DNA of 64,000 bases from Isoetes taiwanensis. Its lineage: Eukaryota > Streptophyta > Lycopodiopsida > Isoetales > Isoetaceae. Where the stretch lies: contig JAJEKV010000094.1 of the NCBI GenBank assembly GCA_021234155.1, positions 436,284 to 500,283 on the forward strand, given 5' to 3'. Position 1 is the first letter of the stretch. Every line of letters begins with the position of its first letter. This document shows, in pieces, positions 6,226 through 63,789 of this stretch. The notes below the pieces were generated by a model. It was not told where the DNA came from. It was given only the letters and a program-made list of their open reading frames with translations, and did not search any database. The translations under genes and the position numbers were made by a program.

Positions 6226-6970
6226 TCTTGCTCCTCTTCCGGCGCCCTTCATCTTTACCACCATCCTTTCCTGTGTAAGCTTCGCCTATCTCGTGCACGA
6301 TGATTCCTTAATAGGTGGTGGTGAGAGCTTTCATGTTTGATTCCACTATCAATTGGTTATGGTCGCTCTTATTTGTTGTTTCTAGCGTAATTGTTTTGGG
6401 TTGATGAGGCTTTGATTATGGACTTGGGTTCCGGGTGATTGTTTGTCAATTAGGCTTTGTGGTCCTTGTACATGCAAATTTATAGATTATGAGCATTGAC
6501 TTCTCGCTGCTTTTGGTATTTGTAAAGTTGTTGTTCATGCCTGCGAAATTTCATAATTCTTTGTCCACGGCTCCAAACGGCATTTTTGCATCTTCTGCAA
6601 AGGGTTTTTACATCGGCCTGGTTGGCCTATTGCAGCTGGTTTTCACATCGCCTTTGCTGGCCGGCCCAAATGATTGCTCGCCAATTTCCATCAAATCACT
6701 CGGTGTCTCTTTGTCCTTTTAATGTTTTTATTTTGTTCTCTAGAACTTCTTACGATTGGCATTCATGAATTTTGCTCATATCGGTACTTCCTCGCCATGA
6801 TGTCGAGCTTGGTTGCGGGTCGAGAGTGCATTTTTGCCGAGGGCAGATTCGACATCTTGATGGTTGTACTCCATCGCCTAGGACCATGTTCATGGATCTT
6901 CCATATTAAATCTTTTCTATTTCCGCTTCCTCTTTTCGACCCCTTTTTTCCCTGGATTCAATATCTAATA

Positions 6971-7350: not shown

Positions 7351-8460
7351 GTTTTTAATGTTTCTTCAGTTAGCATAATGGTTTTTTTTACAAGGTATTG
7401 GTTTCCCTCGTTCTACAATGTAGTGCTACAAAACCCGCCTTTGTTTCCCCTTTATATTCTAAGAACAACACATCAATATGGTCTTTGCCATGTGCGTGTG
7501 GTGGTTATACCGATGGTGGCGGGACCAATTGAACTTGATCTTCATTTATAGGGTTCTCTAGTATAGTAATAATGTTTGATCAACATCGTGTTTGACTTCG
7601 TGTGTCGAGGAATGTCATGTGGAATTGATGGATTGGGAGACTCTATAGTCCGCATTAATATAAAGGAAAAGAAATCGGTTAGATTGATTTTAATTTAGAA
7701 AATAGAACTTTAATAGCTTAAATGAAACCAATCAAATAAAAGCGCTCTACAATAATGTTTATTCATAAACCTTTAGTAGCTAAATAAAATTGAATCAAAT
7801 AAAAGATTTTGACATTGATATATGCTCTACAATAATGTTTTATTCACAAACCATTGCATGAACATCAACGCTACTCTGCAGCAGAATAATTGGTGAGGTT
7901 CATAAAGAACCGCTGAGACTTTTTTTATGGGTTGCCCCGGCTTTGGTTTAACAGTGAAGAGAATAAGCCAGCTTTGGTATGTGGAGTAGGTTTCTCGTGA
8001 ATCTGCCTGAAGCGAGATCAAGGGTAGAGTTTTTGAAGCAAGCTTGCTCGCTCGCTGCTCCACGGTTGTTACTTTTAGCTACGCTTATTTCTCTTTCACA
8101 ATGAAACCATTGTTTATCAATCTATACGATTTTGATGCTCCATTTCTAGTTTAAAGATAATGCATGATTCACCTTCTGGTTCGATTAAAGTTCCAAACCT
8201 ACAATATAAATGCATTCTTGTGGCCACCGCTTGACCGATTCAGATGACTCAAAAAGGGCATGGAATAATCCTTTTGCTGTGTACAAGAATCCGCTTTGTT
8301 GATTGAAGCTAAAGGTTGGCTCAGCTATGAACAATCCGGTAGGGGCCAGAAATATCCAAGAGTTGGAAGCAAACATAGGGCCTAAACTCTAGACTCTTTT
8401 TTGAATCAAGAACATGGTTGGTTGGATACATCAACTTTCATCATGCATCTCTACACTATC
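7351..8460. other. No recognised gene; small minus-strand ORFs
   Basis: Minus-strand ORFs at 8063-7827 and 8376-8185 encode 78 and 63 residues of ordinary composition, without any motif I recognise. A short direct repeat about 90 bases apart (around 7750 and 7832) contains ctctacaataatgttt. Confidence 0.35.
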
Positions 8461-8895
8461 CCCAAGGCCCCAAAGGGGCCAAAAATTTGTTAGTTAACAC
8501 AAACCATTACATCCAACACATTAAATTAGATTTTCCCTAAAACCCCGCTTTTGGTGCATATTCACACGGGAGTGACTCCTCGGGCAAGGAGAGCCGCTTT
8601 TATACCCCCTAAAACAAGATAATACATGCATGAAATCAACACAATTGAGTACATTGCCTCAAACGTTATAGTATTTCACAACTCTCATTATACAAAGATA
8701 AAAAAAATTCGCACGAAGCTTACCCCACAAATGAGGATCGCTATTCACGGTCCAAATCAAAGAATAAGTCGTGAATATGCCTATCCAATAGCTCTCATTG
8801 CCCAAGTCATCCCCTCGTGGAATATGCACCAAAACCAAAGGGGTTTTAGGGGAATTTAATTTAAAGTGTTGGATGTAGTGGTTTATGTTGATGTA
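8461..8895. mobile_element. Foldback/MITE family F, copy 1
   Basis: The left arm begins with the hairpin ggccccaaaggggcc, then aaccattacatccaacac and gtgcatattcacacggg. The right arm is its inverted complement (aatatgcaccaaaaccaaag through gtgttggatgtagtgg). Arms are roughly 130 bases around a core of about 200. Copies 2 and 3 are at 18046-18400 and 22008-22385. There is no transposase. Terminal inverted repeats with no coding capacity indicate a non-autonomous foldback element. Confidence 0.8.
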
Positions 8896-10125
8896 TCTTG
8901 GTCCTTCTAATTTTTTCAAGAACTACCGATTGCCGCCCTAAGCCATCGATTTTTCAATGTGGGATCCAGATCCGAGCTTCGGCTCTTTCCATTCCGACCG
9001 TTAGGTTGGATTTTGGCCAGCCGGGCCGGCGCGGCGCAGAACGCGGTGGTTGAGCCGCATGCAACATCGCTTCATCGATTTTTAGTGATACCGCTTTGCA
9101 GCCCTCAACCTTTCTTATGCTTCCTTTTCTTAACTTGCCCAGCTCCCCCAACCAAAGAGATTTCAATGGCTTTTAAACTTTTCCATCCCCAAAATTTCAA
9201 TCGAATTTGAGCTTTGTTGCACCACACACCTCTATATTTTTCCAACATCACAACAAGAATTATCCCGGACCTCAGATTTTCATTGCAAGTAGGCATAATT
9301 CCAGCTTTTTTGGTGTAGTATAGTTTTTCATGCTATAGTCTCAGATAAGCATTTCTATTCATGTATGGTTTCGAGGAGGATGCCGGACTTCTTCTGTGAT
9401 AGATCCGTGTTCAAATTTGTCAGGGCGCACTTAGTATCCATTTGAGTCATCTCGTGATATTTTTCATGGCTACTTTTAGTTCTCGATTGAATGCTTATAA
9501 AGATATACAATTGTTGGGCCATACACAATTTATACATTTTCATCTTTTCTTATGAATGTAAAATGTGTAGAGTTCTAAAAGTATTGATCCTATTCATAAA
9601 TGGCATATAGGACCTGAATCCTTTCTAGATTGTTTCCGAACCATTCCTAGAAGGGGCCCTACATCATTCCTTGAAGCGCCCGCCTTCGTTATTTTCTTAG
9701 ATCTATGAGTCTAACTAACGTGATTGATGCACAATTCATGTTGTTAGACGTCGAATCCTATTTGTTTAAGTATGGCAACTCTTGGCTACTTTTCCAAGTA
9801 TGTGTTTTGGAGCTTATTATATTCTTTGATTGTTTTCCCCCGATGGCTCTCCATGTTGTTGTCAAGAGGCATCATAGGTTTTTTTGTCCTTGTGTGCATC
9901 TATATTTAGCGTTTTGAATTTGTCATTGAGCATCACATTGAGCATCGTGGGTTGTATTTTTGAAGTTGTTTGCTAGTCATTGAGCATCCCGCAAAGTGGT
10001 GATTCTTGTTTAGTTCCAGCCATTTCTGGTATCTATGTTTATCGATTACATGTGGATTCGATAAATAGTGTGTTGCATTCTCCGTGATCTTCATGAACAT
10101 TTTTGTATGTTATGAAAAAAATTTC
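8896..10125. other. No gene seen; GC-rich patch at 8955-9075
   Basis: The patch at 8955-9075 is distinctly GC-rich (gccagccgggccggcgcggcgc) in AT-rich surroundings. Neither strand shows a recognisable protein. The rest is T-rich, with short chance ORFs. Confidence 0.35.
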
Positions 10126-51599: not shown

Positions 51600-52140
51600 G
51601 CCGAAGCTTCACAAATTGGGGATCATAGACTTCTTCTAACATCCGACATCCTCGGTATATTTGATACATTGCATATTTCGTGTCCTGGCATTAAAATCCC
51701 CTACTAGGACCTGTCCTTTATCTTGAAAATCTTGAATCTGCAATGTAAGAGCATGGTATGGATGGTCCGAGTCCATTCCTTCCTGTTTATACACCTTCAT
51801 ATTCAACGGCGCATAGTAGCAAGCAGCCAGGAATATTGGGTGAGATGTTCCTACTTTTATCCACATAAATTGACTCAGGTGTCTTTTTGTGCCACTCGAG
51901 ATGCTATCTCAAATTGTTTTCGGGCATACAATGCTATGCCTCCAAAACCACGACCCATGCACGAATCTTTCATATTCCATACTGCATCAACAAAGGCAAA
52001 ACCTGTCAAATCTGGTAATGAACTTGACTGGTGCTGCCATGTTTCCAGAAAAATTATAACATCTGCATTTTCCCAAATGTGTACTGTTGCATCTATTTTA
52101 GCCTGGTGTAAACCATGGATATTCCAAAGACATGACCTTT
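51600..52140 (-). pseudogene. LINE endonuclease domain
   Basis: Landmarks in order: WNIHGL, ADVIIFLETWQ (metal-binding E), GRGFGGIALYARK, then after a shift ACYYAPLN and VLVGDFNART. GDFNAR contains the catalytic aspartate and asparagine of AP-type endonucleases. It would nick target DNA to prime reverse transcription. Confidence 0.85.
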
Positions 52141-52489
52141 AGGTCTCGCTTTCCCTATTCTCGATTTTCTTCTCTTTGTTACAATGGGTGGTCCATCCAT
52201 CATAAGCGAATTTCATTAAAGTTGGAAATTTCGCGATTCCAATTTCTCGTGAAATCGCTTTCTTCCCTTTTATCACACATTTATGGCTAGATATGGCACT
52301 ATTTGCTTAAAAAGAAACCAGCTTATCATGCAAAAAACCGCTACATTTAATATAAAACAAATACGGTTTTAGTTGTCGAAGAGAACTATGGCGCCATTTA
52401 CTTGGAAAGTATGAGGAAAAGCTGCCCGAGAAACACAAAAAGCAAATATTAAATTGCCAAAAAAAGCCTCAAAGAAGCAAACAAAATGG

Positions 52490-52705
52490 CGCCGGCCGCT
52501 CCTTTAGCTTAGAAATAACCACAAAGCAAATAGCGTTGGAACGCCGATATTTGCTTTAACGCGAAAGGAAGCAATGGTGCAGCGCCGCTTATTTGCTTGA
52601 ACGGAAAGCAAGCAAATAGTGCGACGCTTATTTAAGAGCTTGTGCAAATAGTGCAAAGCCGCTTATTTGGCGTGAACGTGAAGACCAAGCAAATAGTGCT
52701 CGCGC
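52490..52705. repeat. GCGC inverted-repeat array 1
   Basis: Repeated words caaatagtgc, gcgcc and gcttatttg in both orientations (agcaaatagtgc, gccgcttatttg). Each pair could form a short hairpin. Lies just downstream of the minus-strand ParB/methylase-like relic. Confidence 0.75.
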
Positions 52706-53089
52706 CATTTTGCTATAGATAACACATATTTTCGAAGACCATGTAGATATATATATTAATAGAAATATTATATAAGATACAATTTTTCAAAACACGTAAT
52801 TTTTTTTAATAGTCATTGGCTAAGTGTTCATCGAGACTTTCTCATAATCATCCGTGTTAATTTTATCAAGGGTCAATTTGATCCCCGCTCGCTCCAGCTT
52901 TGGGCCGACGCCTCACCTTTCTCTCAGATGAGAAGCTTCTTCGTCTGCCCCTTCTCGAGATTCACCATCTTGCAAAGTCAAGACTTCCCGCTGGCATGCT
53001 GGTCAATGGCCTTTGGGTCAAGCCGGGGTACATGACGCTCTCGACCCTACCTGTAATGCCCGCCACGATTTCATCTTTCCTAACTCATG

Positions 53090-54345
53090 CTCAGATGTCA
53101 CAATCCGATTCTTCCTACATGAAGGGATGCCCTAGAGAAGGCTCCACCGTAGAAGAAATCTAGTACAATGTTACCTTGAGGGCAGAGCTTATCAACAAGG
53201 TAGAACGCAGCTTGCAGGACCAATCTGTTTATGCACCGATATATTCTCCTCCATACCCCTCGCCAACTCCACTTAAACCCTGCCTTGCATGAGTTTTTTA
53301 GCCATAACATCGCCTCACTTCCGGCATGCTTCCTTTAGGAATAGGAGGAATTTATGGAGCTTTCTAGGATGGTCGCCAAATAGCCTAAGGTCCGTGTCTT
53401 CGCCGCTCTCCGCCTCAGCGTCGAAATCCTCAGAAGCAAATAGAAGAGCTTGTGGCTCTTTGATTCCCTCGAACCACCGTAGCTCCGTGCTCTTCTTCAT
53501 AGATTCCTACAAACACTCTAGACCCGATTCTAGTCTTTCAAGCGACCGGCAAATAGTAAGTTATGTTCCGCCCGACGAAACATAGAATCCAAGATGTCTC
53601 TTGGTCTCGCCATCCGTGAGACATTATTGAAGAACGCTGTTACAGCCTCACTTTTCCAAGCCGAGTAAGCCGCCTTGCATCTAAACATATCATGCCGGCA
53701 GTAGAACCGCACGCTCGCTCGAATCCCCCCAGTGACATGCTCCACAAACCATCTTGGCGTGGCCTTTTCTCGCTTTCAGTCAAGGATTTTTCAATGGACC
53801 TGGCCAAGGAGAATGGCATGTTACCATGAACTCCCCTTTTGAGTATTCCTTCCTGCACTCCACTTATGGTGGCATACCCCAAAACCGTAAGTGCTTAATC
53901 CGAGAAGTGGTCTCGTGGCTTTCCTTAGGTCCTCTCGAATTTCTTGTACTTAGTGCCAATCTGACCGCAATGAAGTGCGATCTCCTTCTTCATGTAAGCA
54001 AGTACTCTTAAGTTCTCATACCGCCTTGAAGAAATTATCGCTTTTGTAATCTGAGGTGACTTTGACGATATATCCCCGCTTAAAGTTTCTTCGAGGACCT
54101 TTCTACAATCATCATAGTCCAAGCCCCTCATGCATCTAAGGTAGTTGTCACCGGCAATCTTTTGTCTTTAGCAAAATTGATTACTATAGCTTGACCCCTC
54201 GTTGTCCTTAGTTCTCCCTTCCTCCATTTGTTCCACATCCGGGCGAAGAGTGCATAGACATCATCCGGCATGAAGACAAACCGATTGACATCCTTCGTGT
54301 GTTTGCCCCTCTAATCTTGTCTCCATTTCAAGGTAGTGCCGCAAG
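53090..54345 (-). pseudogene. Downstream part of the ParB/methylase-like gene, with DNA-methylase-like motif
   Basis: Overlapping minus ORFs cover most of this interval. 54131-53925 encodes GLDYDDCRKVLEETLSGDIS. 53882-53530 holds MPFSLARSIEKSLTESEKRP and, in a second frame, SEAVTAFFNNVSRMARPRDI. 53310-53115 holds YLVDKLCPQGNIVLDFFYGG followed by AFSRASLHVGR. The last resembles motif I of N4/N6 DNA methyltransferases (pGd-V-L-D-x-F-x-G-s-G-x-x-x-x-A-a-l-x-x-G-R), although the second glycine pattern is GG rather than GxG. I find no D/S-P-P-Y/W box. In beta-class enzymes motif I comes C-terminal, which fits the order here. Function is inference. Confidence 0.45.
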
Positions 54346-54374
54346 AGAGTCGGGCATTTTAGAATTTCAAATGT

Positions 54375-54535
54375 TGCTATTTACATCTAATGGCGCAATG
54401 CGCTTATTTGAATTGAAATGGCGCAAGGCTTATTTGAATCGAAATGGCGCAAAAAAGCGCCATTTGATCGAAATGGCGCAGTGCTTTTGATTTACATCAA
54501 ATAGCGCAGCTGCCATTTCGATAAAATGAATGGGT
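54375..54535. repeat. GCGC inverted-repeat array 2, inside a likely intron
   Basis: Six or more aaatggcgca / gcgccattt words in both orientations, e.g. gaaatggcgcaaaaaagcgccatttgatcg. It sits directly downstream of the AAG/GTATGT donor at 54554/54553 of the minus-strand gene. Confidence 0.85.
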
Positions 54536-54553
54536 AAGGAGACGAAAACATAC

Positions 54554-55175
54554 CTTGTACTCGCACTTCTTGATCGCCCTTACCAAATAGGGCTGGTCTT
54601 CCGCGATTCCCGGTAATCGCTATAAGATGGTGGATCTGATCCACATATGGTTCCTTGAAGACAGCTTTGCTACTATATCATTCACATCCACACCGAAATA
54701 AGAAGGTCCGTGTCACCGATCTCTCCGTAAAGAACTCGCGATATTCTATAGACATAGATCTTGCCGAGCTCAGCCTAGCATCCTCTCGTCCCCAACTTAT
54801 CGCATTACACGAGCCGAAAGCAAAGAAATGACCGAATGATTACCATTGATAATATAAAATCTTTTCCGAATCAAGTCAGATTCCTGTGACCAGCTCAGCA
54901 ACTCCTTTGTATCCGGATCAAAGGGCACTACATCTCATCGGAGTGAATACCGGTGTGGATCCTCAAAGAAATGATTTGCGTAGCCTCCTAACATGCTCGG
55001 GGTTAATAACCCTGGCGGTCATATTAGGTGGGGCCTCTTCTAGATCCCAGATAGATATTCTTCTGGTGTATGTGACTCCAAGGGGGAACATGTGGCCGTG
55101 CTTTTGTATTTTCTTTAGTGTTTCCTCTGCCATTTCTTCTTCTTCGTCACGGTCCATCTTTAGTTCCTCGGGCAC
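54554..55175 (-). pseudogene. ParB/Srx-like domain exon of a plant gene
   Basis: The minus strand encodes MFPLGVTYTRRISIWDLEEA, then NMTARVINPEHVRRLRKSF, then after shifts VVPFDPDTKELLSW and RFYIINGNHSV, and ends KKCEYK at an AAG/GTATGT splice donor. The order (A-R-x-I-x-P-x-H-V-x-x-L-x-x-S, then I-I-N-G-N-H) parallels ParB N-terminal/sulfiredoxin-fold domains (R-x-D-x-x-x-i-x-x-L-x-x-S-I, then i-x-G-x-x-R), with N-G-N-H-S in place of G-G-H-R-R. Bacterial and phage ParB-like domains are often fused to DNA methylases, and a methylase-like motif lies downstream. The peptide is unknown to me in plants. Confidence 0.5.
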
Positions 55176-55465
55176 TTCAAGATCTGCAATCTTTTGTAAT
55201 TTCCTTTGCCCTTATCTCTGCTTTGGTTTGTGGCTTTCTCTTTGCTGGAGTGCTATCTCGGCCGTGGATGCTACATTTCTTATGTGCTTTGTAGCCTCCT
55301 TATTGTCACTAATAGTGCGGGTTACTATCGTGAGCTTTTCATCAAGAAGCTTTCGTGACTTCACTTGAGAATCATGTTTGTGAGCCTCGCCTCATCCCTC
55401 TTCTCATCCCTATGTCCCTCCCCTTCTCAACTTCGCCCTTCTTCTTGTTCTCAGATCCCCGTACA

Positions 55466-56140
55466 TCACCACCTCCACTGCTTTTGTTCCTTTGCCGCCT
55501 TTGGTGGCATTTTTAATTTTACACCTTTTCTCTCAGATTCTCCCAAAGAGCCATCCGGCCGTCCATTATCGGGCCGCATAAGTTGTTTCGAGAGCTTCGC
55601 TTTTACAATGTAGGACACGGGAGTTTTTGACATGTCCATGGCCGCCGCATGTATCATCAATCCTTTGAGGATCTCTACCGCGCCTTTGATATCCGCTGCT
55701 CTCGACTCATAAGATGGCAGCGCCAACCTTTTTTCTTGGCCGATGCTGCTTGGTCCTTCATGCCGACTCCATCATTGCAAGCTCGTGAGTAATCGCCAAT
55801 CCATGCAATAGAGATCAATGCCGCCACTCGACCGATCTTCCATCAGGTAACCAAGAAAGTCAAGTCTTCCTTGTTTCTTTTTGACTTCTCTCATGTTGAC
55901 AATGATGCCCATCCGGGCCACTCTGCTGAGGCTCCTTCTTCAATTGCACTGATTTGACAAGGAGGCAAAGTTCTCGCTTCTTGTCTCCCCTTTGGTTGGG
56001 TCTACGCCACCAAGGGTATGGCTCTAACGATCTCCATACACCAAGACCTTCCAAATGAGGACTATGCTCCTCAAGTCACCACGCTCCATTTCTTCTACAA
56101 GACCAGCCACCAAGCAGGTAAGCATGGTGAGAGAAATGGC
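55466..56140 (-). pseudogene. N-terminal part of the ParB/methylase-like gene
   Basis: From high to low coordinates: GLVEEMERGDLRSIVLIWKV, MGIIVNMREVKKKQGRLDFL, then ORF 55726-55466 (AADIKGAVEILKGLMIHAAA). A linker, ISDNKEATKHI/STAEIALQQRES-like in broken frames (55345-55200), leads to the ParB-like exon. Soluble, charged composition. An acceptor-like pyrimidine stretch lies beyond 56110. No known domain in this part. Confidence 0.35.
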
Positions 56141-56159
56141 ATGTGCTAGAAAGTTAAAA

Positions 56160-56560
56160 CAGTAAACGGTATTTAGATTAAATGGCGCAATTTAGATCTG
56201 TAAAATGGCGCACTGGGCCATTTATTTAGCTTTTTATATAATAGAGCAAATGGCGCAGTGCTTATTTAGACTAAAATGGCGCAAATGGGCCATTTTGAAG
56301 GGGACGAAGGGACCCATAAAGAGCTTAATTAAAGCCTAGTTTAGCGCCATTTAGTTTAAATGGCGACTGCGCTACTATTTAGTCTAAAATGGCGCAGTGC
56401 CATTTGCTCTTTTATGGGTCCGCTTCTACAAGAATATTAACAGACATTATAGAAATGGCGCTACCCATTTCACAAACTATAGGAGGAAAAGGTCGCTACA
56501 AACCCACCCTTCTTCCTAATGAAATGGCGCCCGCGCGCCCATTTCAGCTTACCTAAGACA
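56160..56560. repeat. GCGC inverted-repeat array 3
   Basis: About ten aaatggcgc / gcgccattt words in both orientations between 56160 and 56560, often paired around gcagtgc. Located at the 5' side of the minus-strand gene, probably intron or leader. Confidence 0.85.
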
Positions 56561-57415
56561 CTACACTTCAGCTACCTAAGACACTACCTAAGAAACAACA
56601 GATACTAACCTCGAAGCCCGCTCCCCGGATTTTGATCAAGATTGCGCCATTGTATAAAAGTATAAAAGTACACTAACCGTATAAATCCTACTCCACTTTT
56701 TTTTCCGAAAGCCCCCTGATCAACAAAGCGCCAGAGAGAGAAGATGGTTGAATAGGAGAGAGAATGTGCAAGGGCGCTTAGGCGCCAGGGGCGCTAAGGC
56801 TAAGGCGAAGGCTAAGGCTAAGGCTGAGGCGAGAAAAGAACAATGAAATTGAAAATGAAAATTGACTGAAAGAAAAGAAAAGAAAAGTCTGGGAAAGAAA
56901 AGAAAACCAATTTTACCCGCCTCGCCTCTTCAAATTTATACTGTCATTCCGCCTCGAAATTTTGAAAATTTCGATTTTTCCCCCCCAAGTCCGCTCTCTA
57001 CAAATTTTAAAAATTTTGAATTTTCCCCGCCAACCGCTTTCTCCCGCCGCTCACCATTATAAATCTTAGGTAGTTTAAGTCATTCCGCCAAGACGCCAGA
57101 AACCCGCCTACTACCAAATTTGAAATTTGAATTTGCCCGCCTGTATTTTGAACTTTGAATTTGCCCGCCGCCCACTTCATAATGGGCGCTTTTCACCGCT
57201 CATTGCCGTGAGGCGCATATGGTCATTAGAAGGCGCTATACTCGACCCGACGGCTATGCATTTTATGCACCTCGCCCCTCGCTTTCAATATTCGTGAGGT
57301 TTTGCGCTTTTGAGATCTCTTTTTGGTCGAAAGCAGGGCTTTTCTCCGACGCCTATTCCGCCTTTAGACGCTTGGTTCCTTAGTCGATAGCAAAGAGCTT
57401 TGCCGCCTTGGCCGC
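56561..57415. other. GC-word-rich non-coding DNA
   Basis: Includes an (aaggct)n/gcgctaagg minisatellite at about 56775-56835 and repeated tttgaattttcccgcc words (56950-57180). ggcgc words are frequent throughout. Could contain the promoter of the minus-strand gene, but no clear TATA box is assigned. Confidence 0.4.
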
Positions 57416-57419
57416 TTGT

Positions 57420-57615
57420 CTTTTTTTGTACCGCTTAGCCCTTGTCTTCATTCTTCAGCGCGCAGCTTTCGTTTCTTAGGGCGCCGGCTTCATTCTTCAG
57501 CGCTATTTCATTCCAGTGGCGCCGCCTTCATTTTTCAGCGCTTTGTCCAGATTCTCCAAGCGCTTGTCCGCATTGTCAAGATTATTCAGCGCTTGACCAA
57601 ATTCTTCAGCGCATT
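57420..57615. repeat. ttcttcagcgc minisatellite
   Basis: Imperfect units of about 30 bases centred on ttcttcagcgc recur about six times. ORFs across it (FFSA.SF/HSSARS) are artefacts of this repeat. Confidence 0.8.
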
Positions 57616-57844
57616 CTCCTCGATATGGCGATCCTAATCGCCAATGACGCCCGTGTTAGAGGCTATTCAGTTCTAGTAAAATGTTTTAGTATGTTTAATG
57701 TAGGATGTAGGATGTTAAATATTTTAATATGTTTAAGGGTAGATCTTCTCTATCTTGTTCAAGAGATAAGTTCTCAACAATTGATGTCTTGTCAATCTTG
57801 TAGTAATAGAAATCCATAACTCTAGCTATTAGATATAGCATTTA

Positions 57845-58110
57845 GAATAAAGATGCCATTTACCGTCAATGGGCCATTTTCCTTGAATGGAGCAAATAAA
57901 ATTCCTTGAAATGGAGCACCGCGCTTATTTCCCTTTAAAATGACGCAAATATTTAATGGGAAATGGCGCAAATGCCCATTTCAAGGGAATGGCGCAAATG
58001 CTCCATTTCAAGGAAAATGGCCTATTGATTGTAAATGGCGCAAATTCGCGCCATTTCAAGGTAAATGAGCGCGATCAAGGCCATTTCAGAAATGGAGCAC
58101 CGCTACCATT
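57845..58110. repeat. GCGC inverted-repeat array 4
   Basis: aaatggcgcaaatgcccatttcaagg and its inverted relatives recur about ten times. The same word family as arrays 1-3. Confidence 0.85.
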
Positions 58111-58199
58111 TGTCTCATGTCGTATAATTTCTTTCACATTTTCGCTTATTTTCACTAAGTATATGTCATCGAGGGTTGCATGTCTCTAACAAGTATATA

Positions 58200-58810
58200 T
58201 ATATATGTGTATTGATTCTCACAGAAAAGGCCCCCTCGCAAATCCTTGTCGATGGGGATGTGGTAGCTGCCGTGGGACATGAATTGCATAGAGGCCATCT
58301 CGCATGGCAGAACATTCCATGGTGCAATGTGGTCGCGGAGGTCACCGAAGCCATAGTGCCCACCCATGTGCTTCCCATTCCGTGAGGGAGCGTATAACAT
58401 TGCCGGGCCGGGGGACATTTATCGAATGGCCTCAAATCAAGTGAAATAATCGCGGAAGGAGCCCCAACTTACTCATCGGAAACGCCCGATAATCGAAACC
58501 CCGAACTTGCCTAGTAGTCCCTCCACAACATCATCGACTCGCTAAGTCGATCGCCCGCCCTTCAAACAAGAAGCAAAGACAGAATATGGTGAACCTTGTC
58601 GCAATAATACCGTGGGTTGGTAAGGGTGTCTTGGTGAATAGAACTTGCATCCATGGGAAGAATGTTGACGCACTCAACGAAGCAAAGGTAAGTTACCGAG
58701 GTCGTGGTGCCTACCCACATCCTTCCGATTCCATGTGATGGCGCCGACAACATTGAAGAGGTCAGGGCACGCTTATCGAATGGCCTCGCAAAGATATAAG
58801 ATATCATGCC
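58200..58810 (+). pseudogene. Duplicated transposon-like domain
   Basis: Two related stretches on the plus strand: HELHRGHLAWQNIPWCNVV ... IVPTHVLPIP (58270-58385) and CIHGKNVDALNEAKV ... VVPTHILPIP ... GTLIEWPRK (58640-58795). The pattern hydrophobic-H-G/R-x...V-x-V...P-I-P...A-x-N-I...G-x-x-I-E-W-P loosely resembles the C-terminal domain of plant En/Spm (CACTA) proteins. It may form the N-terminal part of the DUF7869-like gene downstream, on the same strand. Confidence 0.35.
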
Positions 58811-59855
58811 ATTGATTTAGCTACTCCATCACCGACCTCGATTGTAGAATCAGAGGGCAATGTCGATGCGATGAAGAAATTGATCCTACAAAGGGATCTA
58901 GGTACACGCTTTTCCTCGCAGGATAGCATCGATGATGATGAACCACCACCTAGTTTCTCAAGAACTCCATCTCTTGATAAGCATTGCCACATTCTTCATG
59001 CATGTGACCGGCAAATATGCAGAGGCCATAATTGTCTTCGATCCCCGTGATGCCGCTGACGATGAATTTTAGGAGACTCAAAGGTGGGGCTCAGGGGGAA
59101 AGATCCTTCCCCGCACTAATTACAGAGGATCTCAAATGTCATGCTTGTGCGTAAAGGCCGCCAGAAAATTACCTTGTACAATGGGAAAATAGCGATGTGA
59201 TGTCAGCAGGATGGAAGGACTGCCTCACAACATCCGCAAGCTCGAGAAGCTAAAGAAAATGAGGATATGGAAATAGAATCTTTGAGGACAACATTCAGGC
59301 TCAATTCAAACGAAAAAGGAAGTATACTTACACACATAGGATTCCAAGACAACCCAAGGGAAAGAGCAAAGAGGAAAGGCTATGCTCCACAACTTCAATC
59401 AATAAGTTCATGAAGACAAGTCACCTGCAAAAATACTTGCAACAAGAAACTTACCAAGCATCAAGTATGTGAATTAAGAAAAGAATTTTTATCTCAACCA
59501 TACAATGCAAGGGTTACGATTTTTTTGACGGGCCGAAAGTGACTTACACAGAGAAGGAGAGGACAGATAGTGCTCAAGGGATGGAATTGCCCTCACCGGT
59601 GGCGATGGCTTTTAGGTATCACCACCAACATTTTACAATTGGAGAAACAGATTTGAAGCAGTGCAAAGGTAGTCAACATGGTAATATCGGCTCTAAGAAG
59701 CCCGTGATCCACTACACCGGCCAATCAATGTGTGCTAGACAGATTCATTCAGAGAATGTCAAAGTATTCCCCATAGGAGCAAAAAAAAAGAGGTAGAGAT
59801 GATGTAAGAGAAAATGTACCTAAGCTTCCTTCCATTCTTAATAAGAAGCTTATAC
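58811..59855. other. Weak coding scraps, no assigned gene
   Basis: Plus-strand pieces such as HVTGKYAEAIIVFDPRDAAD (about 58990-59070) and an 85-codon ORF at 59539 have ordinary composition but no recognised domain. They could be exons of the adjoining element. Confidence 0.3.
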
Positions 59856-61620
59856 ATAAAGAAGTTGGAGCAAAAGGAAGAGCTTACAGAACAACCTGTA
59901 GCCTTGAACTCTTTTTATAGTATATGGAAAAGGGAATTTCCAGATGTTAGCATTGCAAAAAATACAGCCTTCTAAATGCAACATCTCAAGGTGGTAATTA
60001 AGCAAAAAGCCGGAAAAAAAAAAAAGATACAAGAGAGAGACGAAATCTTGCAATTCAACGTCGGGCTCATATATGCTAGAGCAACGCCTTTGCGTAAGTC
60101 AATATTGGCATTGGAGAGCATTGTCACAAATGTCTCCTCGAAAATCATCTATGTATAATACATGATAAGATGGATCAGGTTAAGACTTTAGTGCCTAGAA
60201 GTCATCATCTAGCAAAATCAGATGGAGAGGTGATCGCTTGAAGAGTAGTTTGACAGAGCTTTGACTCATGGGCATGGTGGTCGTGCCTATGGTCATTTTT
60301 CACTTGATTTATGGAAAGATGATTCAAACTTCCACATTGGTTCACTTTCTAGAATATTGCATAACTTGGAATTGGTGCAAGAGGACAAGATAGGTGACTT
60401 ATGTGGAAGTAAGCCCAGAGATTGCAAATGGATGCAAGCAAATAAGGACATCAATCCTTTGAAGAACAAACTTGCTTCCATGGGAGAAGTATTGCCAAAT
60501 ACTTCAACTACAACTAATCCCGAGGTGTTCAACCCTCTTCCCAAATCTCTATTTGCAACTTGATAATGCAAAGGGCAAAACAAAAATAGGTATGTCTTTT
60601 CATACTTATCTTATTTGACTTGGCTTAAGGTCTTTGATGAGATCCAAGTGGGCTTTTTATGATGGTCGGCCACACCCATGATGATATTGATGCTTTATTT
60701 GGAAATTTTTCAACCTTTGATGAGTTCGGGTTTGATGCTTTGACACTACCGTGAGCTACTTTACTTGTTTAGCAATGCAATGCAAAATCCCCAATTCCAT
60801 ACTTTATTGATGAAGTTCCAAATTGAAGGATTTTGTGAAGGGATTCATCCCTCGATAAGGGCCAACGCCTGGTTGGGCATAATCGAACCATTGCTCTTCA
60901 AATTTAAGATGGCGGAGATTGGCCTGTTATGCAATACAAAATGCGCCCTACACATAAAGAGTGGCTTCCAAAGCAGATTCTCCGTGAGTTAGAATGTGGA
61001 AAGAGGATGAACATGGTCAGCCAATGATACCAAGTGGTGTGCCACAAAATATTCCTCCTAGACCAACATTGAAAGATCTTCCGTGGTTGAAGGATAGCAT
61101 CAACAAATACATCTCCCTATGGAAGGACATATGTAAGAATCAAGAAAGTAGCTTGTTTGCAAGGCAATACACGGCAAGTGTTGAGTATTGGAGCCAGCCT
61201 TTCTTATCTCTTTGAGGATGTTGCTTCAGACGCCCTCAAAATGATGCATTTTGGCCACAAACAAGACAAGCTCCTCTAGAACAAATAGCATTTGTTCCAG
61301 AGGTCGACGAGATTCGCCTTTGGTCACACCCACCTTTACCATCTTATTGTGGCCCGCCGATGGTCGCCCGCTGTTGCCTCTTGAAGAGTTTGATCCTCAC
61401 GCATATGTGACAAAGGGTATGTTTGTTCTAGTCGACTGAGATGATAACACCGCCACTTGGTTAGATATGCAGAGGAGAATGTTGTTCTTGATCCGTAATC
61501 TACATATTTTGGCCATATTTTTGTATCGTGGTGGAAGCCTACCGAGGGGACTACAAAGACCGCTTGACTAAGCGCCATGCCTAATCCTTCCGATCCTTCA
61601 AGGTATGAAAATTTAGATGC
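59856..61620 (+). pseudogene. DUF7869-like transposon-associated gene
   Basis: In order: LNSFYSIWKREFPDVSIAKN (about 59900), AGKKKKIQERDEIL (60005), QLDNAKG (60555), VGHTHDDIDALFGNFSTFDE (about 60665-60725), PWLKDSINKYISLWKDICKN (about 61080) and KGMFVLVD (61415) followed by shifted AEENVVLD and SWWKPTEGT-like pieces (to 61560). The Q-L-D-N...G-H-T-H-D-D-I-D-x-x-F combination is diagnostic of the DUF7869 family as I know it, common in large plant, algal and invertebrate genomes and suspected to be transposon-derived. Frames change repeatedly. No terminal repeats found. Confidence 0.6.
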
Positions 61621-61649
61621 TATTCATTATGCCCGATGCCAATGGCAAG

Positions 61650-62090
61650 AGGCCAAAAAAAAAAATTCAAATATATTATAGACATGTGGAAAGACATAGC
61701 ACATTGTTCATCTTAATACATGAGATCTTGTACTTGTAATACATATCTTTCATCTTAATACATAACATTACTATATTTGTGATCATATATAACCGCTACA
61801 TCTTTAATATATAAATGCATACATGATTCATAGATAAGATGGTCGGTGCTTATATGTTGAACAGTGATTCAATCATCTTCGTGATCTCAGAGTAGTGATC
61901 CCCTCGATATCTCATAGCTCATGCGCCAGAAGCCATATCGATGGATCATAACACCTAATTGACGCAGGCAATGAATCTCACCAAAAGCTTTTCTTCGCAG
62001 TAGGATCAAGAAGAAGATGCCTATCTAGGCAACCAACAAGATCGAGTGGCTCATCGAGCACTTGATCGCCGATGTGGTGAATAGAAGAAG
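61650..62090. other. AT-rich DNA, no clear gene
   Basis: Short run of A at 61658, then atac/catac-rich sequence. The minus strand at 62110-61900 has an open stretch (GDQVLDEPLDLVGCLDRHLL) of unknown identity. Confidence 0.3.
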
Positions 62091-62094
62091 GAAA

Positions 62095-62165
62095 ATAATC
62101 CATGGGAGACGAATGACCCTAGCCCCAATGGAGCTGTTTTTATAGTGAAGTAAAATTATTGGGGT
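62095..62165. repeat. Dispersed repeat T, copy 1
   Basis: ccatgggagacgaatgaccc, atggagc and tttttatagtgaagtaaaattattg also occur at 62683-62740, beside the 67-codon minus ORF. On the minus strand both copies lie just upstream of an ORF, with ttcactataaa resembling a TATA box, so this may be a duplicated promoter/leader. Confidence 0.7.
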
Positions 62166-62477
62166 GGATCAGAAGCCATCATTGAGCGTATACAAGTATC
62201 ATGTACTGCATGTATGATTCTATCATGTACTCGATTCTATACATCAACTAATATTCACTATGCTTATATTATATATATCCCAATGTATACAAAATCATAA
62301 GTGCTTATATTAGGTATACATATCATAGATGATTCACTCGCCATTGCACGACTAATATAGGTGTGATTGAAAATAAAAGACAACTTGCATAGTTCATAGG
62401 TACTCATGTCATTATTATATCCTTAGCGCATACGCATTCACTCATCATCAACATCAAAGCACGTGATGCTATTCAGC

Positions 62478-62681
62478 TCAAAGATCTCCCCGATCGTGAA
62501 GCCAATAAAGGTGGACCTTAACACGAAAGTGAGCTTCCCCGCAAGCACTCAGTAGACCATCCGCTTTGGACCGCAGCCATGGATCAAGTTTGATACCATT
62601 TCTGTAGCATTCACACGCATCATTATAGCTAAGGTAGCACCCGGCGGATTGATGTTCTCGACGATCGTGCAAGGAAGCCAT
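62478..62681 (-). CDS. TPR-like ORF, 67 codons
   Basis: MASLHDRREHQSAGCYLSYN begins at the end of repeat T copy 2. NDACECYRNGIKLDPW resembles a TPR helix pair (A-x-x-x-Y-x-x-x-I-x-L-x-P). Too short for a functional TPR protein. A diverged counterpart downstream of repeat T copy 1 (62110-61900) suggests a local gene duplication. Confidence 0.35.
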   Translation of the reverse strand: MASLHDRREHQSAGCYLSYNDACECYRNGIKLDPWLRSKADGLLSACGEAHFRVKVHLYWLHDRGDL

Positions 62682-62682
62682 G

Positions 62683-62745
62683 GGAGATGAATGAGCTCTA
62701 CCACCGATGGAGCGCTTTTATAGTGAAGTAAAATTATTGATGTGA
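62683..62745. repeat. Dispersed repeat T, copy 2
   Basis: Matches 62095-62165 in the same orientation (catgggagatgaatgagc, cttttatagtgaagtaaaattattg). Confidence 0.7.
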
Positions 62746-62818
62746 ATTATTGGTGTTCATTGCCTTTATAATGAAAGTACCATACATGTATATGATCCAA
62801 TAATTTCTATGTATATAC

Positions 62819-62895
62819 TATCAATAATTTTGATGAGTATATACCATCAATAATTTTGGTGGGTATACCATCAATAATTTTGGTGGGTATAAATA
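62819..62895. repeat. Minisatellite, unit about 25 bp
   Basis: Three units of atcaataattttggtgggtat with one variant. Confidence 0.9.
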
Positions 62896-63194
62896 TACAT
62901 CAAATTGCCGAAAAAAGAACATTGGCCTCCGCCTAGCTATGACTTATTCTCGTCTTGAACGTGATTCTATCACTTGCAAGATGAATCATGAGGACTTCAA
63001 GCCGTGCCGCGAGCCAGATATACCGCTTGAAGACCGCTCACCATCGCTGTTCTCAATCCTCGCCATTATCCCCGATCCCGCCGATGTTATCATCCATCTC
63101 CCCGTGGAATAGGGAGTATCAAATGTTCATGATCGAAAGGATCTCGAGCGCCTTCGCTAGTTCTCGATCATTCGTAGTAATAGTAGAAGAATAA

Positions 63195-63475
63195 TATTAC
63201 TTGTTATCTTATTGTAATCTGTTGTGTTAGTATACAACAGTACACATAACCTTTTGTAATACACATAACCGTAATATAAGTAATAGTAAAATAATAGTAC
63301 TTGTTATCTTATTGTAATCTGGTTGTACTCTTTATTGTTATCTTATTGTAATCTTATTGTTATCGGTATACATAACCTTTTGTAATACACATAACCATAG
63401 TATGCAACAGGTATACATAACCTTTTGTAATACACATAACCATACTATAAGTATTGAGGTATACATAACCCTCCA
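63195..63475. repeat. Minisatellite, acataaccttttgtaatac and related units
   Basis: Interleaved units acataaccttttgtaatac (four copies) and ttgttatcttattgtaatc (three copies). Confidence 0.9.
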
Positions 63476-63789
63476 AGGTATACTATATAAAAATTATTCC
63501 AACTTGTCTTCAGAATTCCAACTTTAATGAAACTCTGCTTTCATCAAGACAAGATTACATAATAACAATACACGTACAAAATGCATCAAGAATGCTCAGA
63601 CTCCAAGGGGTTCAACCGACAAATGTGGCCTTTAGATAACAAATGCATTTAATCAAGACAATGGCATTGGCTGGCATAAAACAATGGCTAGGGTAGTCCA
63701 AATTCATCCTCCCTCCCCGTACACTTTGTAGATAGGCTGAAACATGCTATGGCATGAATGTAACCTTCCGGAGATGTAATCTCATAGAT

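Follow-up and report, generated by a model that had tools for sequence, protein, structure and literature searches.

A decayed 11-kb TIR transposon of the quillwort Isoetes taiwanensis with a second gene that likely encodes a ParB/methyltransferase-like protein predicted to bind its own palindrome arrays

Genes combining a ParB-like part with a DNA methyltransferase are in print for transposons of brown, green and red algae, and the accessible part of that work proposes that the encoded proteins bind and modify their own element, with no target site named there (PMC12477816). One of them, the giant transposon Sola1-1_Ec32 of Ectocarpus, carries a gene for a 1104-aa protein with ParB-like and N4/N6 methyltransferase parts (PMC12477816). 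The first-pass annotation of the locus described here knew of no description of a spliced plant version; for algal transposons, as noted, such fusions are in print. For land plants, a ParB-methyltransferase transposon gene was not found among the open-access literature matches listed, and Iyer 2011 and Petroll 2025, on green and red algae, may mention one. The words ParB and Sola are absent from the main texts of two Isoetes genome papers.

The locus lies in a window of 64,000 nucleotides, which is the whole stretch of DNA that was analysed. It is read here as a decayed 11-kb TIR transposon whose second gene likely encodes a ParB/methyltransferase-like protein, predicted to bind the element's own palindrome arrays and to do so without normal methylation. 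The probability of this reading is put at roughly 0.5.

The element is a DNA transposon of 11,337 bp with a TIR of about 26 bp, AAGCAGAGTTTCATTAAAGTTGGAAT, at both ends (Table 1). The genome searched comprises 1,658,258,908 bases in 1110 contigs, and eight other copies, out of 20 chosen, were obtained at 10 kb each. Most of these eight share a sharp right end, and the matching inverted end in the window lies 11.3 kb off. Left-end sequence was obtained for six of the eight, five of which yielded both ends; in L035 the left end is absent from the stretch obtained, and the counts of ends and TSDs leave out L031 and L037. A perfect 4-bp TSD was present in all six copies with both ends found, namely the window copy and five others (ATGA, TGTA, TATA, TATA, AATG and TTGT), which span lengths of 10,759-12,350 bp. 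The TIRs and TSDs led us to discard a Helitron, an LTR element or a LINE as explanations. In L037, the left TIR of another copy lies inside the element at oriented position 6449, which marks a nested insertion of the same family. Just past the right end of the element in L031, a sequence of about 0.67 kb stands in tandem copies (7542-9553), and just beyond the right end in the window (51636-52138, minus strand) there are open pieces that resemble a LINE endonuclease by eye (VLVGDFNART...).

The first-pass annotation had described a plant gene relic and had offered a transposon protein and a nuclear gene family among its options. The position of the gene inside an 11-kb TIR element, with TSDs in six of six end-mapped copies, bears out the former option, and the host gene relic is replaced by an accessory gene of a transposon. 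It is highly improbable that a host nuclear gene or pseudogene was picked up once by the transposon: the gene is long and has an intron, as a host gene might, but it lies within the same TIRs in each of the end-mapped copies, and the copies diverged while the ParB-like block stayed under selection.

Table 1. Positions of the transposon and its parts in the window (position 1 is the first letter of the window).
Feature	Position	Strand	Basis
TIR DNA transposon, entire	52204..63540	-	TIRs and TSD ATGA/ATGA; both ends mapped in L032, L033, L034, L036 and L038
Right terminal inverted repeat, decayed (...TTTAATGAAATTCGCTT)	52204..52229	-	
Half-sites near the right end	52391..52710	.	
Exon 2, broken: middle region, family DARQ site, methyltransferase motif I, stop	52806..54338	-	
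Methyltransferase motif I-like stretch GNIVLDFFYGGAFSRASLHVGR	53110..53175	-	phrog_3008 and hhalign
Predicted intron, 215 bp, with decayed palindromes; acceptor mutated to GG here	54339..54553	-	
Decayed palindromes in the intron (AAATGGCGC half-sites)	54416..54479	.	
Exon 1, broken: N-terminal region and ParB-like block; start codon guessed	54554..56037	-	alignment to open exons of L031, L034, L036 and L038
ParB-like block (NPEHVRRLRKSF ... IINGNHSV)	54797..55211	-	string search and hhalign
Palindrome/half-site cluster upstream of exon 1	56180..56530	.	
Palindrome/half-site cluster between the divergent genes, transposase-like side	57961..58056	.	
Transposase-like gene, DUF7869 (PF25273) stretch; broken here	60534..60809	+	E 4.5e-8
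Left terminal inverted repeat AAGCAGAGTTTCATTAAAGTTGGAAT	63515..63540	-	

The transposase-like gene and the ParB-like gene are divergent and lie on opposite strands. In copy L036, DUF7869 (PF25273) is matched with an E-value of 6.3e-36. All 15 database relatives of the DUF7869 protein belong to PF25273; two are called "hypothetical protein", the rest are nameless and none is named Sola. The protein carries a DNxxGQNKN...GHTH motif, which may resemble Sola. A 4-bp TSD is a Sola habit according to the accessible part of PMC10741241, and the Isoetes element shares this trait. The element is likely a member of the Sola superfamily, as suggested by the TSD, with its transposase known here as DUF7869 alone. 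In L032 (345-1718, minus strand) and L036 (6505-7392, plus strand), a stretch ending in GTFIEWPR occurs twice in the transposase-like gene, preceding its DUF7869 part.

The accessory gene consists of two predicted exons on the minus strand (52806-56037) and is broken. The strings quoted in the first-pass annotation are real and all lie in this gene: ARVINPEHVRRLRKSF is found in the open stretch 54963-55211, IINGNHSV in 54797-54934, and NIVLDFFYGG together with AFSRASLHVGR in 53098-53334, each on the minus strand. The splice donor that it had reported is present as GTACAAG/GTATGT (54554/54553), and all eight other copies retain the donor after ...DEYK. The acceptor before HYLEM is kept in seven of the eight, and both counts include the divergent L038. 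At the acceptor position the window reads GCGG, where seven of the eight other copies have GCAG or TCAG and L032 has lost its acceptor. We infer that both motifs belong to one gene, as had been supposed, joined by a predicted splice; the intron measures 118-228 bp in seven of the eight copies and falls within this range in the window. The frames are indeed broken, exon 1 having 15-29 stops in each frame and exon 2 having 24-27, and the window copy is regarded as a relic because of these frames and the GG acceptor. The relic of the earlier description is thus upheld for the window copy, whereas the unit is larger than noted, comprising the whole gene and the element around it.

The gene is one of many. 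The 82-aa ParB piece (NPEHVRRLRKSF) has at least 151 genome matches as counted (1,922 first-look candidates, 150 scored), with identities of 59-99% among the matches listed, self excepted. Because the same protein recurs in the genome, the quoted strings are more than chance. The search for intact paralogues, which had been proposed along with the original description, succeeded in part: frames of the ParB-like exon are open over 300-555 codons in some genome matches, but both exons are open throughout in none of the eight copies examined at 10 kb.

Selection was assessed on 186 codons of the ParB-like block, where dN/dS is 0.03 for L038-L031, 0.10 for L026-L031 and 0.11 for L031-L034; in two further L038 pairs the synonymous sites are saturated. 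L031-L036, the closest pair, has a value of 0.32. The exon 2 comparison (183-188 codons) gives no dS for any of the three L038 pairs because of saturation, their dN values being 0.23-0.26, and two close pairs have dN/dS values of 0.32 and 0.42. Judged by these codon comparisons, the ParB-like block of the diverged copies is under purifying selection, and the protein was therefore kept during copy divergence. In recent copies, constraint is weaker or none, and a present-day function is putative.

The second characteristic of the family is its palindromes. In the window, AAATGGCGC occurs 18 times against an expectation of 0.52, and all occurrences lie within 52391-58056. In the copies it forms half of a 22-bp palindrome, AAATGGCGCA-NN-TGCGCCATTT, with AAATGGCGCAGCTGCGCCATTT as a candidate binding site. 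Each of the eight copies contains 5-17 palindrome sites at up to two mismatches, and none appeared in 20 first-order simulations of each; neighbouring sites are spaced 27-28 bp apart in 38 of 75 steps by hand count. The perfect palindrome is found at 408 sites genome-wide (1.66 Gb), and the reversed pattern at none. Of the 408, 50 were listed, and for 33 of these 50 a listed ParB-exon match is no more than 6 kb away; unlisted copies may or may not account for the remaining 17. Clusters are located on both sides of the intergenic region and in the intron, and half-sites near the right end. This 22-bp palindrome, with its intergenic and intronic clusters, is new here. The window's own palindromes are decayed, and L038 keeps its palindromes although synonymous positions are saturated, giving no dS, in five of six comparisons.

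Repeats bound by a transposase are common near transposon ends. The palindromes could also be bound by the transposase, or else by a host factor, as promoter or subterminal repeats, with the ParB-like protein doing something else. We consider this unlikely, although with some weight: its support comes from the clusters in the space separating the divergent genes and from those half-sites that stand close to the right end. Against it, all eight copies also have half-sites within the ParB-like gene's intron, and no AAATGGCGC half-sites occur at the window copy's left end.

Established domain models recognize little of the protein. The first-pass annotation was to count as refuted if profile searches with intact paralogues hit neither fold, and for Pfam this came out literally: neither ParB nor a methylase was recognized in the window or in the open exons of other copies, a result that is softened only by the motif I comparison. 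Exon 1 gave no Pfam match in L031 and Pox_G5 alone in L038 (E 0.31), with no match of the PF02195 type, and NCBIfam gave no fitting match on open exons. As a reference, 13 ParB-methylases of phages and archaeal viruses were used, consisting of M.PhiCh1-I and 12 of the 30 listed among 1,577 matching records. The ParB-like block was aligned to this reference by hhalign with a P-value of 0.064 over the expected ParB boxes; the score was reached by 9 of 200 column shuffles, one of which scored 34.5 against the observed 20.5. When the template was ParB only, 5 of 200 shuffles reached it. The ParB pattern noted at first is therefore kept as far as the alignment over the expected boxes goes, but it is weakened by these shuffles and by the missing Pfam match. 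The ParB box carries an arginine (GE/HxR), and the box of this family is GNHS, without arginine. The case for a ParB/sulfiredoxin fold in the N-terminal block, as far as these alignments suggest one, is marginal.

Structure prediction, also proposed earlier, lent no support to either fold. Two AlphaFold models from alignments of 13-14 close paralogues had mean pLDDT values of 36.1 and 35.3, and a search of solved structures returned no useful match. The search of the window exon against a protein database gave no candidate, and a spliced copy pair compared with 5.8 billion proteins revealed no fusion homologue among the 7,992 scored candidates sharing most words. A search for viral contigs gave no confirmed match. 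Of the first 14 phage regions, six were inspected beyond their annotation: L053 (M.PhiCh1-I) has a ParB part, L045 and L046 have none by Pfam, and L054, L056 and L057 have none by eye. When window pieces and X-masked frames were compared with Pfam and PHROGs, the useful matches were phrog_3008 and DUF7869; those to AP2 (E 0.17), DUF1031 (E 0.027) and the like were weak and were judged to be noise.

The methyltransferase-like part fares better in its first motif. The motif I piece of the window matches phrog_3008 in PHROGs with an E-value of 0.0069, and phrog_3008 is the sole PHROGs match of L036 (E 0.065). The AdoMet motif I of the family is PGNIVLDFFSGGAFSRASLHVGR. In hhalign, the exon-2 profile falls on the reference motif I with a P-value of 0.002, and none of 200 column shuffles reaches the score, which agrees with the likeness seen in the first-pass annotation. 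On the basis of the alignments and shuffles, motif I is therefore considered supported and the ParB likeness suggestive. These results also bear on whether both likenesses could be due to chance in a transposon ORF of unknown kind with an unrelated fold. The open exons without a fitting Pfam match, the marginal ParB comparison and the uninformative structure prediction would allow for this, but motif I outscores all 200 shuffles, both blocks match the corresponding parts of one phage fusion profile in the same order, and transposons of the same architecture are in print according to the accessible part of PMC12477816. A chance likeness is thus quite improbable.

The catalytic box, by contrast with motif I, is missing. 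The absence of a P-P-Y box, noted earlier for the window, is a family trait, since the [DNS]PP[YFW] or DPPY-like tetrad is absent from all 13 exon-2 rows, some of them partial. No PF01555 (N6_N4_Mtase) match was obtained with Pfam in exon 2 of L036. A conserved ICLDARQ, equated by eye, occupies the expected place; in comparisons of the DARQ block, shuffles reach the score in 91 of 200 cases for phage methylases and in 57 of 200 for the DLPY methylases of the genome, and neither likeness is significant. Two copies with just 77% protein likeness have an identical DARQ, which means that the change did not arise by decay of single copies. We infer that the methyltransferase-like domain keeps motif I and has lost the DPPY catalytic box. 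The genome also holds a second high-copy family with a true PF01555 match (L001-L008 and L029; at least 150 matches counted), which has a DLPY box in four readable loci, repeat ORFs of the GIHFGF/CIPEYTL type nearby and no ParB-like part found, and which is possibly another methylase-bearing mobile element. Loci L001-L008 were considered as a better-kept paralogue and rejected; with their DLPY box and no ParB-like match, they look like a different family.

DNA methylases often use symmetric sites, and the palindrome is such a site. The protein might be a functional DNA methylase and place N4-methylcytosine or N6-methyladenine marks in the palindromes or throughout the element, which would also suit the match of motif I to phage ParB-methylases and the predicted methylase activity of algal transposon proteins in the accessible part of PMC12477816. 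The family-wide loss of the tetrad and the DARQ shared by such diverged copies speak against it, and we regard it as rather improbable. Because the catalytic box is missing, a marking function is less likely than for the algal proteins.

The reading favoured here remains that of a protein binding the palindromes of its own element. ParB proteins bind palindromic parS sites. By analogy, the ParB-like block would bind the palindromes, and the methyltransferase-like domain would act as a binding or assembly module rather than as a normal methylase. Bound to its own copies, the protein would control expression, gather the ends for transposition or fend off host silencing. Expression control is preferred because the palindromes lie between the divergent genes and in the gene's own intron. 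The presence of a ParB-like protein beside private palindrome arrays, some of them intronic, suggests that the element may recognize itself. A bolder version is tentative and somewhat doubtful: a vascular-plant transposon with its own ParB-parS-like system, in which a ParB-type protein with a repurposed, non-catalytic methyltransferase domain would coat dedicated palindrome arrays in the element's intergenic region and intron as a self-mark independent of host chromatin. The lack of the catalytic box would suggest that binding alone can suffice for proteins of this kind. The strict 22-bp palindrome gives this high-copy family a candidate target, so that the idea of self-binding is directly testable in vitro.

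Compared with described systems, the Isoetes element is likely a land-plant version of the algal kind, in which the catalytic site is altered and parS-like arrays are present. The fusions of phages and archaeal viruses (such as M.PhiCh1-I, locus L053, and the "ParB-like partition" proteins L062-L064) also have ParB at the N-terminus, a methylase at the C-terminus and an alignable motif I. However, the 13 reference viral fusions, 395-480 aa long with one cut at the record end, keep DPPY or SPPY, which the Isoetes family lacks, and the ParB box of M.PhiCh1-I is GEHR rather than GNHS. As described in the accessible part of PMC8885841, N4CMT of bdelloid rotifers is likewise a bacterial-type amino-methylase in a eukaryote, but it belongs to the host, has a chromodomain and helps to silence transposons, whereas the Isoetes gene belongs to a transposon. 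Plant Sola transposons such as Sola1 of Physcomitrella resemble the Isoetes element in TIRs, 4-bp TSDs and a length in the same range, as far as the accessible parts of PMC9033089 and PMC10741241 describe them. Ectocarpus Sola1-1_Ec32, in the accessible part of PMC12477816, is likewise a DNA transposon with an accessory ParB-like/methyltransferase-like gene opposite the transposase, a likeness of layout that is tempered by the marginal ParB part of the Isoetes gene, and it is 21.5 kb long against about 11 kb in Isoetes. The Isoetes element differs from it in a host that is likely a land plant, in the absent DPPY box and in the palindrome arrays described, and its quillwort host would extend such elements to land plants.
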